Both the position numbers and the translations under genes were made by a program. Source: Chloroflexota bacterium (GTDB lineage: Bacteria; Chloroflexota; UBA6077; JADZDV01). From it: DNA of 7,264 nucleotides. Below, in pieces: positions 1,906-7,264 of the stretch. Every line of letters begins with the position of its first letter. Positions within the stretch are counted from its first letter, which is position 1. The stretch is from positions 1-7,264 of the forward strand of contig JADZDV010000117.1 in the NCBI GenBank assembly GCA_020850915.1, read 5' to 3'. The notes below the pieces were generated by a model. The model saw only the letters and a program-made list of their open reading frames with translations, did not search any database and was not told the DNA's origin.

Positions 1906-2748
1906 GTGAACGCCTCCGAGCTGTTGCCGCCAGCGGAGGCCCGCCCGGTGTCAGACCGTGCCGAGGTGCTGGCGAACGAAGAGGTCGGACCGCTGACGTT
2001 CGAGATGGTCCTTCGCTCGCCGCGCATCGCGGAGCGCGCGCAGCCTGGCCAGTTCGTCATGGTCACCGCCGCCCGCGACGGAGGGCTCACGCCGGTGCTG
2101 CCGCGTCCAATGGCGCTCTATGACTGGGATCCGGACGCCGGGGCCGTGTCCTTCGTCTATCGGGTCGTCGGCGAGGGTACGCATCTGTTGTCCATGCGGC
2201 AGCCGGGCGCACAGGTCGAGCTGCTGGGGCCGCTCGGTCAGGGGTTCACGGTCTCGCCGACAATCCGCGGCGCGCTGCTGATCGGTCGCGGGCTCGGCGT
2301 CTGCTCGCTGGCGGCGCTGGCCGTCAGGCTGGCCGGCCGGCAGGTGGCAACGCACGTTCTGGTGAGCGCTCGTCGGCATGAGCTGCTCCTCGGCCTGCCG
2401 TTCTTCGAGCATCTCGGCCTCGAGGTCACGGCGGTGACGGACCAGGAGGGGACGAGCCTGCTGCCAGTTGTCGGCTCACTGCTGGAGCAGGTGCTGGATG
2501 TGCAGCCGTTGAGCCAGCTTTTCGTGGCCGGCTCGCGTCGGCTGCTCGATCTTGCCGTCGATCTCGCGGCCTCCATCGGCGCGGAGGTGCAGGTGTTCCA
2601 GACAGCGCCGATGGGCTGCGGGCTGGGGTACTGTGGAAGCTGCGCTCTCGACGGACCCGGGGCGGTCCAGGCGAGGAGGCTGGTCTGTCGCGACGGTCCG
2701 GTGTTCAGGCTCAGACCCTCGGCTGATCCCCGAATGGTCGGGCGGTAG
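1906..2748 (+). CDS. pyrK: PyrK-like dihydroorotate dehydrogenase B electron-transfer subunit (FAD, [2Fe-2S]), divergent
   Basis: PyrK-family proteins carry FAD and a [2Fe-2S] cluster and shuttle electrons between a PyrD flavoprotein and NAD. This 280-residue cytosolic protein has the family order. An FAD domain contains LPRPMALYDWD (residues 65-75) where LRRPISI is usual, then YRVVGEGT and LGPLGQGF (107-114). A nucleotide-binding domain begins with IGRGLGVCSL (126-135), in place of GGGIGVxPL. The iron-sulfur ligands are C238, C243, C246 and C261 (C-x4-C-x2-C-x14-C), followed by RDGPVF. In the nucleotide-binding half, the family's TDDGSxGxxG segment is replaced by TDQEGTS (178-184), and the CGP motif by AGS (208-210). 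NAD use is therefore uncertain. The GTG start is set by the strong ribosome site. The partner gene begins 2 nt after the stop, so the two are surely co-transcribed and probably form one complex. Family assignment is firm; the pyrimidine role is doubtful. Confidence 0.85.
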   Translation: MNASELLPPAEARPVSDRAEVLANEEVGPLTFEMVLRSPRIAERAQPGQFVMVTAARDGGLTPVLPRPMALYDWDPDAGAVSFVYRVVGEGTHLLSMRQPGAQVELLGPLGQGFTVSPTIRGALLIGRGLGVCSLAALAVRLAGRQVATHVLVSARRHELLLGLPFFEHLGLEVTAVTDQEGTSLLPVVGSLLEQVLDVQPLSQLFVAGSRRLLDLAVDLAASIGAEVQVFQTAPMGCGLGYCGSCALDGPGAVQARRLVCRDGPVFRLRPSADPRMVGR

Positions 2749-2750
2749 TC

Positions 2751-3722
2751 GTGACGTTCGAGCGGCGCACCCGCTGGGTGGTTGAGCCGTCGCTAGCCGT
2801 GGAGCTGGGATCCCTCAAGCTCGCCAACCCGGTCATGCCGGCCAGTGGCTGTTTCGGCCCGGGGCTGGCGCCCTGGCTGGGGCCAAATCGGCTGGGGGCA
2901 CTGGTGACGCCAACGGTCTCCCTGCGGAGGCTTCGCCCGGGCGGGCCGCGCTGCCTGGTCGAGACTGGTGGCGGGCTGCTGGTGGGGGATGCGGCCGGCC
3001 CGACGGTGGACGACCTGGTGGACGACCTGCTGCCGAAGTACGCGCCGTTTCGGGCGCCGTGCCTGGTCAGTCTGGGCGGGGGTGACTCGTCCGAGCTCGG
3101 AGCGCTCGCCGAGCGTCTCAGCGGCGAGCGAGACATTGCTGGGTTCGAGCTGAACCTGGCGTTTCGGGGCGTCGACGGCGAGGCGCTCGGTAGTGACCCG
3201 GATCGCGTTGAACGGATGGTTCGAGCGGTGGTCGATCGCTCGGAGCTCCCGGTGCTTGCGAAACTGACCTCGGAGGGCGTGTCGATCGCGGACGCGGCCC
3301 GGGCAGGGGAGGCTGGCGGGGCCACTGCCCTCACCGTGGCGGCCAGCCTCCCGGCCCTCGCCATCGACGTAACGGGTCAACAGGCTCCCGTCGCGGCCTC
3401 GGGCTACCTGTGCGGGCCGGCCGCCAGACCGCTGGCGCTCGCCCTGGTGCGGCGGGTCGTGCGCGTCGTCTCGATCCCCGTGGTGGGCGTCGGAGGCGTC
3501 TCCACCGCCCGTGATGCCGTCGAGCTCCTCGCGGTCGGCGCCCGGGCGGTGCAGGTTGGGACGGCAACGCTCGTGCGTCCGGACGCCATGGCGCGCATCG
3601 TGGACGGAATCGCCCTGTTCCTTCGCCAGGAAGGTATCGGCGACGTGCGAGATCTGATCGGCTCGCTGGAGCGTGGGAGCATCGGCCGCGCAACGCCAGA
3701 GGGGCCGCGAGCGACCGGTTAG
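2751..3722 (+). CDS. pyrD: PyrD-like (class 1B dihydroorotate dehydrogenase family) flavoprotein lacking catalytic residues
   Basis: Class 1B dihydroorotate dehydrogenase oxidises dihydroorotate to orotate with FMN and passes electrons to PyrK. This 323-residue protein is clearly of that fold: VELGSLKLANPVMPASGCFG (17-36), LRPGGPR (61-67), KLTSEG (171-176), ALAID (202-206), GYLCGP (218-223), VGVGGVSTARDA (245-256) and AVQVGTA (266-272). The last two are FMN-phosphate-site motifs. Active-site residues are missing, however. The strand usually reading VVKGTT is VTPTVS, so Lys becomes P54. The NxxGLxN orotate loop is VGDAAG (78-83). The catalytic NxSCPN is NLAFRG, so Cys becomes F138. The Asn of the INT motif lies in a VAAS segment (196-199). 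The frame is intact and base use matches its neighbours, so it is probably a retained enzyme with another substrate. GTG at 2751 follows the pyrK-like stop by 2 nt; GTG at 2778 is an alternative start. Confidence 0.85.
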   Translation: MTFERRTRWVVEPSLAVELGSLKLANPVMPASGCFGPGLAPWLGPNRLGALVTPTVSLRRLRPGGPRCLVETGGGLLVGDAAGPTVDDLVDDLLPKYAPFRAPCLVSLGGGDSSELGALAERLSGERDIAGFELNLAFRGVDGEALGSDPDRVERMVRAVVDRSELPVLAKLTSEGVSIADAARAGEAGGATALTVAASLPALAIDVTGQQAPVAASGYLCGPAARPLALALVRRVVRVVSIPVVGVGGVSTARDAVELLAVGARAVQVGTATLVRPDAMARIVDGIALFLRQEGIGDVRDLIGSLERGSIGRATPEGPRATG

Positions 3723-3795: not shown

Positions 3796-4689
3796 ATGGC
3801 GCTCACGAACCTGAGTTTCTACAGCAACGGCCTGAAGCTGGCCGCCTATCTCAGTACGCCGGAAGACTGGAAGCCAGGCGACCCGCCCCGACCCGCTATC
3901 CTCTGCCCGGCTGGCTACTCTGGCAACACTCAGACAGACGTGACCCACATGGTCGCGCGGCTCACCACGGCCGGTTACTTCTGCCTCGCCATTGACTACC
4001 AGGGATTCGGCGAGAGCGAAGGCCAGCGGGGCAGACACCGGCCGCTCGAGCAGGCGCAGAACATGCACGACGCGCTCTCGCTCATGCAGACGATCGAGGG
4101 TATCGATCCGTCGCGGCTGGCGATCTACGGCACCAGCTTTGGCGGAGCGAACGGCATCTGGGTGGCTGCGCACGACGAGCGGGTCAAGGTTCTGGTGACG
4201 AGCGTGGCGGTCACCCACGGCGAGCGATGGATGCGCCTGATTCGAAGGCCATGGGAGTGGCAGGCGTTCAAGGAGCAGGTGGAGGCGCATGCCCGGGAGC
4301 GGGTGAAGACCGGCCAGCCCGAGAGCCGCCCCATGACCGACATCCTGCTCCGAGATCCGCACTCTCAGTGGGTCCGCGAGCAGCACATTGCGCGCGGCGC
4401 GAACTACGTCATGGAGTACGACCTGGAGAGCGCGGAGGCCGTCTTCCGCTACCGGCCAGAGTGGGTCGTGGACAGGATCAGCCCGCGACCGGTGCTCTTC
4501 ATTTACGCCGAGCACGACGGGCTGGTCGAACCAACGGACCAGTTGTCCTGCTATGAGAAGTGCGGCGAGCCGAAGAAGCTGGTGAAGCTGCCAAAGGCGC
4601 ACCACTACGACAGCTACGAGTTCGTCAACCCTGAGATGGCCGCTCTTGTCCTGCGGGAGACGCTCGAGTGGTTTGGCACCTATCTGTGA
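3796..4689 (+). CDS. Alpha/beta hydrolase (dienelactone-hydrolase/peptidase-like superfamily)
   Basis: A 297-residue serine hydrolase with the complete alpha/beta fold. It opens with strands YSNGLKLAAYLSTP (9-22) and PAILCPAGYSG (33-43), where the oxyanion loop follows the third strand. Next come AIDYQGFGESEG (65-76), the usual 'D-x-x-G-x-G-x-S' turn, and the nucleophile elbow YGTSFGG with Ser114 (bases 4135-4137). The charge-relay Asp is most likely D241 in YAEHDGLVEP, and the His is H270 (or H269) in KAHHYDSYEF. The stretch at about 140-220 is a helical insert or cap rich in Trp and Arg, which would set substrate choice. No signal peptide or membrane segment is seen, so it is probably cytosolic. 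The reaction (esterase, lactonase or amidase) cannot be told. The start is supported by the ribosome site GGGGAG. A small helix-hairpin-helix gene follows after 28 nt and is probably co-transcribed. Confidence 0.9.
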   Translation: MALTNLSFYSNGLKLAAYLSTPEDWKPGDPPRPAILCPAGYSGNTQTDVTHMVARLTTAGYFCLAIDYQGFGESEGQRGRHRPLEQAQNMHDALSLMQTIEGIDPSRLAIYGTSFGGANGIWVAAHDERVKVLVTSVAVTHGERWMRLIRRPWEWQAFKEQVEAHARERVKTGQPESRPMTDILLRDPHSQWVREQHIARGANYVMEYDLESAEAVFRYRPEWVVDRISPRPVLFIYAEHDGLVEPTDQLSCYEKCGEPKKLVKLPKAHHYDSYEFVNPEMAALVLRETLEWFGTYL

Positions 4690-4717: not shown

Positions 4718-5305
4718 ATGACCGGCCAGTTGTGGTCCAGCCACGATCTCGAGGCGTGGCAGCGTGCTCTCCTGGCCTACCCACGGGTGGTTCAGGAGCA
4801 GCCATCTGCGCTGCTCCACCGATTGGACGCCTGGTATCGGGAGGAGCTGCCGGCTGCCCTGGTCGGACGGGAGCCACCGTACCTGACCCCGCGCGAGCTG
4901 GTCCAGGTGGTCGAGTGGAAGATGGCGCGCGGAGTCTGGCGGCCACGGAATCTCCAGCTTGCCCGTGCCAATGACGAGGCGGCGGTCTACGCTGCTAGCC
5001 AGGAGGCCTTCCGCCGAGCACCTGATCCGGCGGCTCCTCTGCGCGTCCTGGGACGGCTCAAGGGTGTGGGCCCGGCAACGGCCTCGGCAGTACTCGCCGC
5101 CTGGCGGCCTGACCTGTACCCGTTCTTCGATGACGTCGTGGCCGCGCAGTTGCCAGGGATGGAGATCGGCCAGTTTACGCTGCCGGCATATCAGCGGTAC
5201 GCCGCGACGCTGCGCGGGCGCGCTGAGCTGCTCGGCGCGCCCTGGACGGCACAGCAAACGGGACTCGCCCTCTGGAGCGCGGCCGGCGGCAAGCTTTCCT
5301 CCTGA
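4718..5305 (+). CDS. Uncharacterised helix-hairpin-helix protein, HhH-GPD glycosylase-like
   Basis: A 195-residue protein with no assigned function that I can name. The start is taken at ATG 4718 because GGTGGGG (4704-4710) lies 7 nt before it. The frame is open further upstream, but that would overlap the hydrolase gene and give poor protein sequence. A conserved-looking block, LVQVVEWKMARGVWRPRN (61-78), is followed by a helix-hairpin-helix, LGRLKGVGPATASAVLAAW (111-129), and then YPFFDDVVAAQ (134-144). Helix-hairpin-helix units bind DNA backbone. In HhH-GPD DNA glycosylases the catalytic Asp sits 22 residues after the first Gly of the GVG turn; D138 is exactly there. The C-terminal iron-sulfur cysteines of MutY/Nth enzymes are absent; in fact there are no Cys at all. 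I recall similar uncharacterised proteins with the EWKM-R-WRPRN block in other bacteria and in eukaryotes. DNA binding is plausible; glycosylase activity is speculative. Confidence 0.75.
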   Translation: MTGQLWSSHDLEAWQRALLAYPRVVQEQPSALLHRLDAWYREELPAALVGREPPYLTPRELVQVVEWKMARGVWRPRNLQLARANDEAAVYAASQEAFRRAPDPAAPLRVLGRLKGVGPATASAVLAAWRPDLYPFFDDVVAAQLPGMEIGQFTLPAYQRYAATLRGRAELLGAPWTAQQTGLALWSAAGGKLSS

Positions 5306-5434: not shown

Positions 5435-6871
5435 CTAGCCGGAGACCGGGGAGGCGCTCAGACCCGGCTCGGTCATGCTGGTCGGGTCGAGAATCTTGCT
5501 CATCTCCTCTTCGCTGAGCTGGGTGCGCTCGCGTGCCACTTCGCGGATCGTCCGTCCAGTCTTGTAGGCCTCTTTGGCGATCTCGGCTGCCGCGTCGTAG
5601 CCGATGACTGGTGCGAGGCTGGTCGTGAGCATGAGGCCACGCTCGACCATCTCGGGACCGTGGGAGGTCGCCTGGATGCCTTCGATGCACTGGTCCACGA
5701 GGTTGCTCAGCGAGGTGGAGAGAATGGCGATGGACTGAAGCAGGTTATACGCTGCCACCGGCATCATGACGTTGATTTCGAAGTTGCCGCTCTGGCCGGC
5801 TACTGCCACGGTCATGTCGTTGCCGATCACCTGCGCGCAGACCATCGCCACAGCCTCGGCAATCACCGGGTTCACCTTGCCCGGCATGATCGAGCTGCCC
5901 GGCTGTACCGCTGGCAGGTCGATCTCGCCAATGCCGGCGCGCGGACCCGAGCCGAGCCAGCGCAGGTCATTGGCGAGCTTCATCATGCTGACGGCGATCG
6001 TCTTCAGCACGCCGCTCGCCTCCACGATGTTGTCGAGGGTGTTCTGAGCCTGGAAGTGATTGCCGGTCTCGTGGACCTCCACACCCGTCATCTCGGAGAG
6101 CCGGCGACACACCCGGGCCGAGAACTCCGGATGCGCATTGACGCCCGTGCCGACCGCCGTCCCGCCAAGCGCCAGCTCGCCAAGCTCCTCCTGAGCGTGG
6201 CGCAGGCGACGGATGGCCCGCTCGGCCTGGCCGGCGTAGCCGAGGAACTCCTGGCCGAGCCGAATCGGGGTCGCGTCCTGGAGATGCGTGCGGCCGGTCT
6301 TGACGATCGGCATGAACTCGTCGGCCTTGGCCCGCAGCGCGGCCTCGAGCTTCGCCAGGGCGGGAGTCAGGTCTTCCTCGATCGCGATCAGGGCGGCCAG
6401 GTGAATGGCGCTGGGAATGACGTCGTTCGAGGACTGGCAGATGTTGATGTGGTCGTTGGGGTGGACCCGCTTCGAGCCGAACGGCGCCCCAAGGCGCTGA
6501 ATCGCACGATTCGCGATCACCTCGTTGGCGTTCATGTTGGTGCTCGTGCCAGAGCCGGTCTGGAAGATGTCCAGGACGAACTGGTCGTCGAACGCGCCGC
6601 TCGCCACCTCGCCCGCGGCGCCGATGACGGCATCGGCGATCGTCGGGTCGAGCAGGCCGAGGTCGCGGTTGGTCTCAGCCGCCGCCAGCTTGATCAGCCC
6701 GAGGGCGTGGATGAAGCGACGCGGAAACCGCAGCTCGCTGATCGGGAAGTTCTTGACGGCGCGCATCGTGCTGGCGCCGTAATAGGCTCCGTCTGGGACC
6801 TCCAGCTCGCCCATCGAGTCTCGCTCGATGCGTCGGCCGGGGCGCTGGTCCAACGTCGTCTGTTCAGGCAT
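5435..6871 (-). CDS. fumC: Class II fumarate hydratase (fumarase C)
   Basis: Fumarase C interconverts fumarate and malate in the TCA cycle; it is an iron-free cytosolic homotetramer. The 478-residue product carries all the superfamily motifs: DSMGELEVPDGAYYG (18-32), FQTGSGTSTNMNANEVIANR (103-122), HPNDHINICQSSND (137-150), GRTHLQDATP with the catalytic His196 (193-202), GGTAVGTG (236-243) and the signature GSSIMPGKVNP (325-335) with catalytic Ser326. The C-terminal fumarase domain ends with the usual TGRTIREVA and LDPTSMTEPG. H in GRTHLQ and the QSSND block favour fumarase over aspartate ammonia-lyase, despite the aspartase-like YYG and NFPIS near the start. Length matches the family (about 460-480). 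The start ATG at 6869-6871 has GTGAGGA (plus-strand 6878-6884) 6 nt before it. It lies 117 nt downstream of the sigma-factor gene and may have its own promoter. Confidence 0.97.
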   Translation of the reverse strand: MPEQTTLDQRPGRRIERDSMGELEVPDGAYYGASTMRAVKNFPISELRFPRRFIHALGLIKLAAAETNRDLGLLDPTIADAVIGAAGEVASGAFDDQFVLDIFQTGSGTSTNMNANEVIANRAIQRLGAPFGSKRVHPNDHINICQSSNDVIPSAIHLAALIAIEEDLTPALAKLEAALRAKADEFMPIVKTGRTHLQDATPIRLGQEFLGYAGQAERAIRRLRHAQEELGELALGGTAVGTGVNAHPEFSARVCRRLSEMTGVEVHETGNHFQAQNTLDNIVEASGVLKTIAVSMMKLANDLRWLGSGPRAGIGEIDLPAVQPGSSIMPGKVNPVIAEAVAMVCAQVIGNDMTVAVAGQSGNFEINVMMPVAAYNLLQSIAILSTSLSNLVDQCIEGIQATSHGPEMVERGLMLTTSLAPVIGYDAAAEIAKEAYKTGRTIREVARERTQLSEEEMSKILDPTSMTEPGLSASPVSG

Positions 6872-6988: not shown

Positions 6989-7264
6989 TTACTCGAGATA
7001 GGCGCGAAGGCGGCGGGAGCGCGACGGGTGCCGCAGCTTGCGGAGCGCCTTGGCTTCGATCTGGCGAATGCGCTCGCGAGTGACGCCCAGTTCGTCGCCA
7101 ATCTCCGAGAGCGTGCGGTCCCGATCGCCGTCCAGGCCGAAGCGTAGCTCGACGACGCGCCGCTCGCGGCCGGAGAGCGTCCCCAGGACAGCACGGATCT
7201 GCTCGCGGAGCATGGCGCGATTTGCCGCGTCATCCAGGTCTGGCGCGTTCTCGTCGGGGACGAA
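6989..7264 (-). CDS. rpoD: Principal RNA polymerase sigma factor (RpoD/SigA), C-terminal end, cut by window edge
   Basis: Sigma-70 factors direct RNA polymerase to promoters; region 4 reads the -35 box. The last 91 codons are present on the minus strand, and the frame is open through base 7264, so the gene starts outside. The visible part opens with [17 protein letters not shown], the usual acidic linker before region 4. It continues with [20 protein letters not shown] and ELRFGLDG (region 4.1), then [20 protein letters not shown], the helix-turn-helix of region 4.2, [20 protein letters not shown] and a final Glu. The intact RERIRQIE recognition helix and the C-terminal RHPSRSR-LR-YLE tail are typical of the housekeeping sigma factor rather than of alternative ones. 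The stop is TAA at 6991-6989. fumC follows in the same direction. Confidence 0.95.

Follow-up and report, generated by a model that had tools for sequence, protein, structure and literature searches.

The window, by which we mean the whole 7264-base stretch of DNA analysed here, carries seven genes or parts of genes that can be recognised. On the forward strand, an FAA-hydrolase gene (13-801) is followed by the gene for a PyrK-like subunit of 280 amino acids with an FNR-like FAD/NAD domain and a [2Fe-2S] domain (1906-2748; PF10418, 40.4 bits; phmmer match to 5ksw_B, E 2.9e-24), the gene for a PyrD-like subunit of 323 amino acids that is a divergent class 1B dihydroorotate dehydrogenase (DHODH) homologue (2751-3722; Pfam DHO_dh, 93.8 bits), an alpha/beta hydrolase gene (3796-4689) and a DUF6308-like gene (about 4718-5305). 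Encoded on the reverse strand are a fumarase of class II (5435-6871) and, running off the window, the final part of an RpoD-type sigma factor (6992-7264). The closest fumarase found is 77% identical in 400 sampled Chloroflexota genomes and 72% in 198 sampled Actinomycetota genomes, the two phyla compared, so that the DNA probably comes from a Chloroflexota bacterium. The PyrD-like gene starts two bases past the end of the PyrK-like gene, and its frame opens with GTG and is uninterrupted up to the stop codon, which lies within the coordinates given; the preliminary description had likewise called it whole. Between the FAA-hydrolase and PyrK-like genes lie 1.1 kb in which no recognisable intact gene was found. 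The longest forward frame within these 1.1 kb (968-1663) has a sub-threshold match to a PD40 beta-propeller (17.4 bits; cut-off 20.9), and this stretch is perhaps a broken beta-propeller or peptidase gene. In codon usage, the PyrK and PyrD genes fit the window's larger genes at 0.11 and 0.05 bits per codon, compared with 0.51-0.65 in the three training genes, but this says little because the DUF6308-like neighbour, outside the training set, has an equally low fit (0.12 bits per codon).

The PyrD-like protein of the window (P0001) was compared with 118 relatives, which are the best 120 of 959 found at E <= 1e-10 (7995 candidates scored) minus P0001 itself and its divergent relative P0002. It was also aligned with the solved structure of Lactococcus lactis DHODB (5ksw, an I74D mutant), whose K, NAxGLQN, NISCPN and INT sites match the segments described below. 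The Lys that contacts FMN and orotate, present in all 118 of these relatives, is Pro54 in the segment VTPTVS (residues 52-57; 2904-2921, forward strand, as for all segments that follow). The substrate loop, NSVGIPS or NAIGLQN elsewhere, is replaced by LLVGDAAGPT (2976-3005; VGDAAG at residues 78-83), one residue shorter in the alignment, with loss of an Asn78 that 117 of the 118 possess. In ELNLAFRG (3147-3170; NLAFRG at 135-140), which stands in place of the catalytic NxSCPN, Asn135 is kept and Cys has become Phe138, at a motif where Ser, Cys, Pro and Asn are each found in 118/118 of the set. The INT Asn, again universal among the 118, is Ala198 in LTVAASLP (3330-3353; VAAS at 196-199), next to a Ser199 that is kept as Ser/Thr, and in SGYLCGP (3399-3419) the second Gly of GGLSG (Gly219 in 118/118) is Tyr219 and the Ser is Cys221. 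On the cofactor side, VLAKLTS (3252-3272; KL at 171-172) keeps Lys171, presumably the FMN-site Lys judging by class 1A structures, and loses the conserved Pro after it at position 174, while VGVGGVST and QVGTA (3483-3572; GGVST at 248-252, QVGTA at 268-272), which we take to be the FMN phosphate-site motifs, are both present. The motifs and residues listed in the preliminary description are all found where it had placed them. Its statement that the active-site residues had been lost all together is right for F138, P54, V78 and A198, all of them replacements, but goes too far for Asn135, Ser199 and Lys171, which are kept.

PMC12481576 describes, for a Leishmania class 1A structure, an orotate bound through Lys44, Asn68, Asn128, Asn195, Ser196 and backbone atoms, with Cys131 as the catalytic residue. 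Of these, P0001 lacks the counterparts of Lys44, Asn68, Asn195 and Cys131 and retains those of Asn128 (N135) and Ser196 (S199). Sixty-nine columns are at least 95% conserved in the 118 relatives (from the best 120 of 959); P0001 and P0002 both keep 50 of them, both depart at 17 and part company at 2, where just one departs, and no single protein of the 118 departs at more than six. Conserved orotate-contact and catalytic columns, assigned by hand from the list in PMC12481576, depart in 6 of 7 cases compared with 11 of 62 for the others (Fisher p 0.0006), and the change is therefore centred on the substrate site. PMC10395836 reports that a fungal class 1A enzyme no longer complements once Ala is put in place of the equivalent Lys or Cys. 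No alternative Cys or Ser base occurs in ELNLAFRGVDGEALG, the segment standing where the catalytic loop would be; Cys34, Cys104 and Cys221 are present in both P0001 and P0002. With the NCBIfam class 1B equivalog PRK07259, P0001 scores 198.7 bits, below the cut-off of 269, and all eight PyrD relatives scored with it reach 341-453. The predicted model of P0001 has a TIM-barrel fold of the FMN-binding type (pLDDT 88.6, compared with 90.7 for an intact relative), which, together with the FMN motifs, is consistent with the earlier view that the cofactor site is kept.

The partner subunit has also changed. Of 334 PyrK relatives found, the best 120 were listed, and 67 close ones among these were used to define conserved columns. 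Four [2Fe-2S] ligand cysteines, aligned to the cluster-domain cysteines of 5ksw_B, are kept as Cys238, 243, 246 and 261 (codons at 2617, 2632, 2641 and 2686; 2617-2688, forward strand). The window PyrK and P0122, a second PyrK introduced below, both depart at 7 of the 53 columns that are at least 95% conserved in the 67 close relatives (best 120 of 334), and these seven include Cys208, which is Ala in both (2527-2529, forward strand; Cys in 118 of 119 compared PyrK sequences), and Glu233, which is Thr in both (2602-2604, forward strand; Glu in 119 of 119). The FNR family has a conserved Cys at its NAD(H)/flavin site, and by analogy positions 208 and 233 of PyrK may lie there; the loss of both residues suggests that the NAD(H) end of the complex has changed too. 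PMC9687028 describes a Ser-Glu pair for the FNR family, and adds that cytochrome b5 reductase, an NADH-using enzyme of the FNR fold, does without it, a point against equating the loss of Glu with loss of NADH use. The NCBIfam models for PyrK do not separate the window PyrK from close relatives with intact residues: on PRK00054, with a cut-off of 314, the window PyrK scores 113.4 bits and 5/5 close intact relatives also stay below (best 106-134 bits).

The same residue losses occur in one other protein among the best 120 of the 959 relatives. P0002, 84% identical to P0001, is listed with another contig, a 2995-base sequence from JGI, and P0122, 87% identical to the window PyrK, is listed with a 2995-base contig that we take to be the same one. 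Both frames are open in the window pair and in the P0002/P0122 pair, and both copies keep the cluster cysteines and the FMN motifs. The preliminary description had expected automatic annotation to call such a protein pyrD, and JGI does so for P0002, despite the score of P0001 on the equivalog model.

Further members were sought widely. Among the best 120 of the 959 relatives, only P0001 and P0002 have lost the motifs. With residues 50-225 as query, four proteins were found, namely these two, P0241 and P0242. P0241 (385 amino acids; ENA, longest contig 12382 bases) has Lys changed to Arg, the loop Asn to Thr and CPN to CAG, with the catalytic Cys kept; it sits on a branch of 2.22 outside the lineage described below, its position being unsure. 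P0242 also keeps the Cys, and His replaces the last Asn of its motif. In Chloroflexota, 343 of 400 sampled genomes have a match at E <= 0.001 (mostly with five first-look candidates scored per genome), the best four being 48-50% identical, and in one Chloroflexota class of 29 genomes, 3 match at E <= 1e-60. That class yielded 54 DHO_dh matches, of which 30 were fetched; a pattern search finds the Cys motif in 22 and a Ser motif in 2, and by alignment the other six comprise four with Cys, one with Ser and one fragment. Lys54, Cys138, Asn198, Asn135 and Lys171 are kept in 113/113 locus matches and Asn78 in 110/113, a set restricted to stop-free matches that cover more than 250 residues, with some genes present twice. 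Matches in 79 plasmid records are all below 60% identity, and viral contigs scanned with six peptide patterns gave no relative. Among the titles and opening lines of abstracts listed in a literature search, there was no description of an orotate-degradation operon or a DHODH pseudoenzyme like the window pair.

In a maximum-likelihood tree of 62 chosen PyrD sequences (IQ-TREE), P0001 and P0002 form a pair (100/100) inside a class 1B clade of 34 sequences (100/98). The 32 other members all have a loop of the GIPS type, the named ones being from Chloroflexota and Actinomycetota, and P0001 lies among them with a loop of its own, VGDAAGPT. Thirteen sequences with a GLQN-like loop fall outside the clade. 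A wider group that adds GIPS-type sequences from Pseudomonadota is less certain (91/91) and includes one sequence with neither loop. Across the 62-sequence tree and the 113 locus matches, the GIPS or GLQN loop separates this second class 1B lineage from biosynthetic PyrD, with two changes per label. The stem of the pair is 1.42 in the IQ-TREE analysis, and its tips are 0.17 for P0001 and 0.058 for P0002, about a threefold difference; with FastTree the stem is 1.54 and the next longest inner branch 0.46. In the PyrK tree the stem, at 0.96, is barely the longest inner branch (next 0.84), and joint acceleration of both subunits is therefore weakly supported; the tip lengths are reversed relative to PyrD, with 0.081 for the window PyrK and 0.138 for P0122.

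The gene neighbourhoods of this lineage point to a particular kind of operon. At six of its Chloroflexota loci (L001, L112, L113, L114, L115 and L118), a phosphoribosyltransferase and an M20 amidase precede PyrK-PyrD, 6/6 by profile; the amidase passes the NCBIfam hydantoinase/carbamoylase cut-off in 3/3 tested (L001, L112, L118) and the transferase the NCBIfam pyrE cut-off in 2/2 tested (L112, L118). The gene order at these Chloroflexota loci runs phosphoribosyltransferase, a protein of about 170 amino acids, M20 amidase, GIPS-type PyrK and PyrD. Scanned against Pfam at five of the loci, the protein of about 170 amino acids is without a match at four (L001, L112, L113, L114), and in L115 it resembles a phosphoribosyltransferase weakly (16.5 bits, E 0.0055). 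On three Pseudomonadota plasmids, GIPS-type genes lie beside a carbamoylase or Zn-dependent hydrolase, plus a dihydroorotase and/or an orotate phosphoribosyltransferase. Klebsiella accounts for 53 of the 79 matching plasmid records, and the one read, an IncFIB plasmid (L084), carries a GIPS-type PyrD, a PyrK annotated as hypothetical, a Zn-dependent hydrolase and a dihydroorotase. Genome G001 also carries a biosynthetic operon, recognised by profile from pyrB, dihydroorotase, carA and carB, which includes a PyrK and a GLQN-type PyrD of its own. Two strong DHO_dh genes were found in G005 and only one in G233; a GIPS-type gene is therefore not in every case an additional copy. From the gene order we infer that the GIPS lineage serves orotate utilisation; the papers listed, at title and abstract level, contained no biochemistry for it.

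The ancestor of the window pair was thus probably of the GIPS-loop, orotate-utilisation type. In the window itself, no carbamoylase or phosphoribosyltransferase gene or remnant was found, and a search of 801-1905 for remnants of the sister-operon genes gave a best score of 20.0 bits, compared with a mean of 21.9 for the best of each of 30 shuffles. At one of the six sister loci, within the flanks fetched, PyrK-PyrD runs towards an rpoD on the opposite strand, as it does in the window (G233, locus L112: 5839-7257 and 8876-10872; window: 1906-3722 and 6992-7264). The shared orientation would fit a positional orthologue that has lost its upstream genes, although it may be due to chance.

Among known systems, the closest relatives of P0001 are the GIPS-loop class 1B PyrD proteins of orotate-utilisation-type operons (up to 51% identity among the best 120 of 959), which occur in Chloroflexota, Actinomycetota and Pseudomonadota and on plasmids of Variovorax, Klebsiella and Roseomonas. 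The Chloroflexota and Actinomycetota members share a clade with the window pair, and the close PyrK relatives of the GIPS type have a matching PyrK type (PRPMA/GRGxGxCSL). Unlike the window pair, however, the GIPS-loop proteins read keep the K, the NxSCPN and the INT-site Asn, and the loci read have an adjoining carbamoylase-type hydrolase with a dihydroorotase and/or phosphoribosyltransferase. Relative to the class 1B PyrDB-PyrK complex of L. lactis (PDB 1ep3/5ksw), the Cys, Lys, loop Asn and INT Asn of PyrD are replaced, as are the PyrK Cys and Glu at 208 and 233. Dihydropyrimidine dehydrogenase and PreA are a poorer match to P0001 (NCBIfam PreA, 94.6 bits; cut-off 335) and keep their Cys, which is Cys671 in the pig enzyme according to structure titles. 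A further comparison is the dihydrouracil oxidase of fungi, for which we know of no PyrK partner. This class 1A DHODH by sequence sets a precedent for another reaction under a DHODH name in databases, but the mould enzyme, unlike P0001, keeps its catalytic Cys (PMC10395836).

The two copies allow selection since their split to be examined. With both genes pooled, conserved columns differ between the copies at 7/122 and others at 80/480 (Fisher p 0.0014), the figures being 5/69 and 45/253 for PyrD alone (p 0.038) and 2/53 and 35/227 for PyrK alone (p 0.023). Restricting the count to conserved columns that one copy or both still keep gives 3/98 (p 1.2e-4), a choice that favours the functional reading. 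The PyrD columns that have departed differ between the copies at 3/17, compared with 45/253 of the unconserved ones (Fisher p 1.0); departed columns vary like unconserved columns, and hence there is no sign of selection on the new pocket. Under substitution-only drift to the same divergence, the frame stays open in a fraction of 0.28 for PyrD and 0.30 for PyrK (400 simulations each). The earlier claim of a changed substrate instead of decay is thus borne out in part: the losses are common to two copies and conserved columns change less, but no substrate is indicated and the departed columns behave as unconserved ones do.

With most key substrate residues lost and the cofactor framework kept, the gene pair probably has a different job. 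It is very unlikely, judging by its sequence, that P0001 works as an ordinary dihydroorotate dehydrogenase, and the PyrK-PyrD pair has probably retained its cofactors. Our favoured explanation, to which we give an even chance, is an orphaned and re-purposed PyrK-PyrD complex, no longer a dihydroorotate dehydrogenase, that descends from the GIPS-loop class 1B lineage and is kept for another role. The heteromer would have arisen from that lineage and not from ordinary biosynthetic PyrD, become separated from the other genes of an orotate-utilisation operon, and lost dihydroorotate/orotate chemistry before being kept for its other role. FMN would still sit in the PyrD barrel and FAD and [2Fe-2S] in PyrK, with electrons passing between them; the pocket above FMN, with Pro54, Val78, Asp80, Phe138, Arg139, Ala198 and Tyr219 at former contact positions, would serve another substrate or electron partner, and NAD(H) exchange at PyrK would be weakened or replaced. 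Against re-purposing stand the small number of sequences (two), the 3/17 and 45/253 comparison, and frames whose openness is not rare under drift. A stronger form of the proposal, which we advance tentatively and consider rather unlikely, is a DHODB complex blind at both ends, whose wire of FMN, [2Fe-2S] and FAD would have been kept by selection and would now serve a different donor and acceptor, or a different substrate; the pair would then be a two-subunit flavo-iron-sulfur oxidoreductase that has escaped recognition under a pyrimidine-biosynthesis annotation. The preliminary description had proposed an unrecognised flavin oxidoreductase subfamily; it was probably right that this is no DHODH, but its 'subfamily' consists of two sequences. 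Our analysis adds to it the loss in one other protein (among the best 120 of 959), the losses in the partner, the two surviving orotate contacts and the probable GIPS-type ancestor.

The main rival is slow decay, in which an orotate-utilisation operon was stripped of the genes for its hydrolase and transferase and the PyrK-PyrD left over came under relaxed selection, with no stop codon as yet. We regard this as a serious possibility, if not a probable one. Both terminal active sites without their residues, the very long PyrD stem, the absence of the sister-locus operon genes from the window and of a recognisable intact gene from the 1.1 kb upstream, the variability of the departed columns and the readiness with which frames stay open under drift are all as decay would have them. 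However, the pair exists in two copies, 84% and 87% identical, neither of which has a broken frame, conserved columns change less (7/122 vs 80/480), and the four cluster cysteines and FMN motifs are kept in both, so that between a new function and fading, the balance is towards function.

The remaining readings fare worse. A non-catalytic flavoprotein or scaffold, a pseudoenzyme that binds cofactors or a partner without redox chemistry, would account for the missing PyrD substrate residues and for the absence of the conserved Cys and Glu from PyrK when most of the other conserved positions survive, but a pure scaffold would have no need of the cluster ligands and FMN-site motifs that persist, and we consider it improbable. 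That the protein is still a dihydroorotate dehydrogenase using other residues is much less probable again: Asn135, Ser199 and Lys171 are kept, and three cysteines are common to both copies, but the Lys, both Asn and the SCPN of the loop are all lost and the stretch in place of the catalytic loop offers no Cys or Ser. A sequencing or assembly artefact is hardly credible, for although the window is a single short contig, the same changes are found in P0002 and P0122, a pair listed with another contig.

The pyrD/pyrK annotation of the window pair is very probably wrong in function, and what sets the pair apart is that residues kept by the relatives are missing from the two subunits of a redox complex and not from just one of them. 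An active pair would mean that the PyrK-PyrD electron wire had found a new use; a decaying one would provide a snapshot of the loss of a flavoenzyme complex. The GIPS or GLQN loop, a signature of this sample only, could help to tell biosynthetic from catabolic PyrD in genomes.
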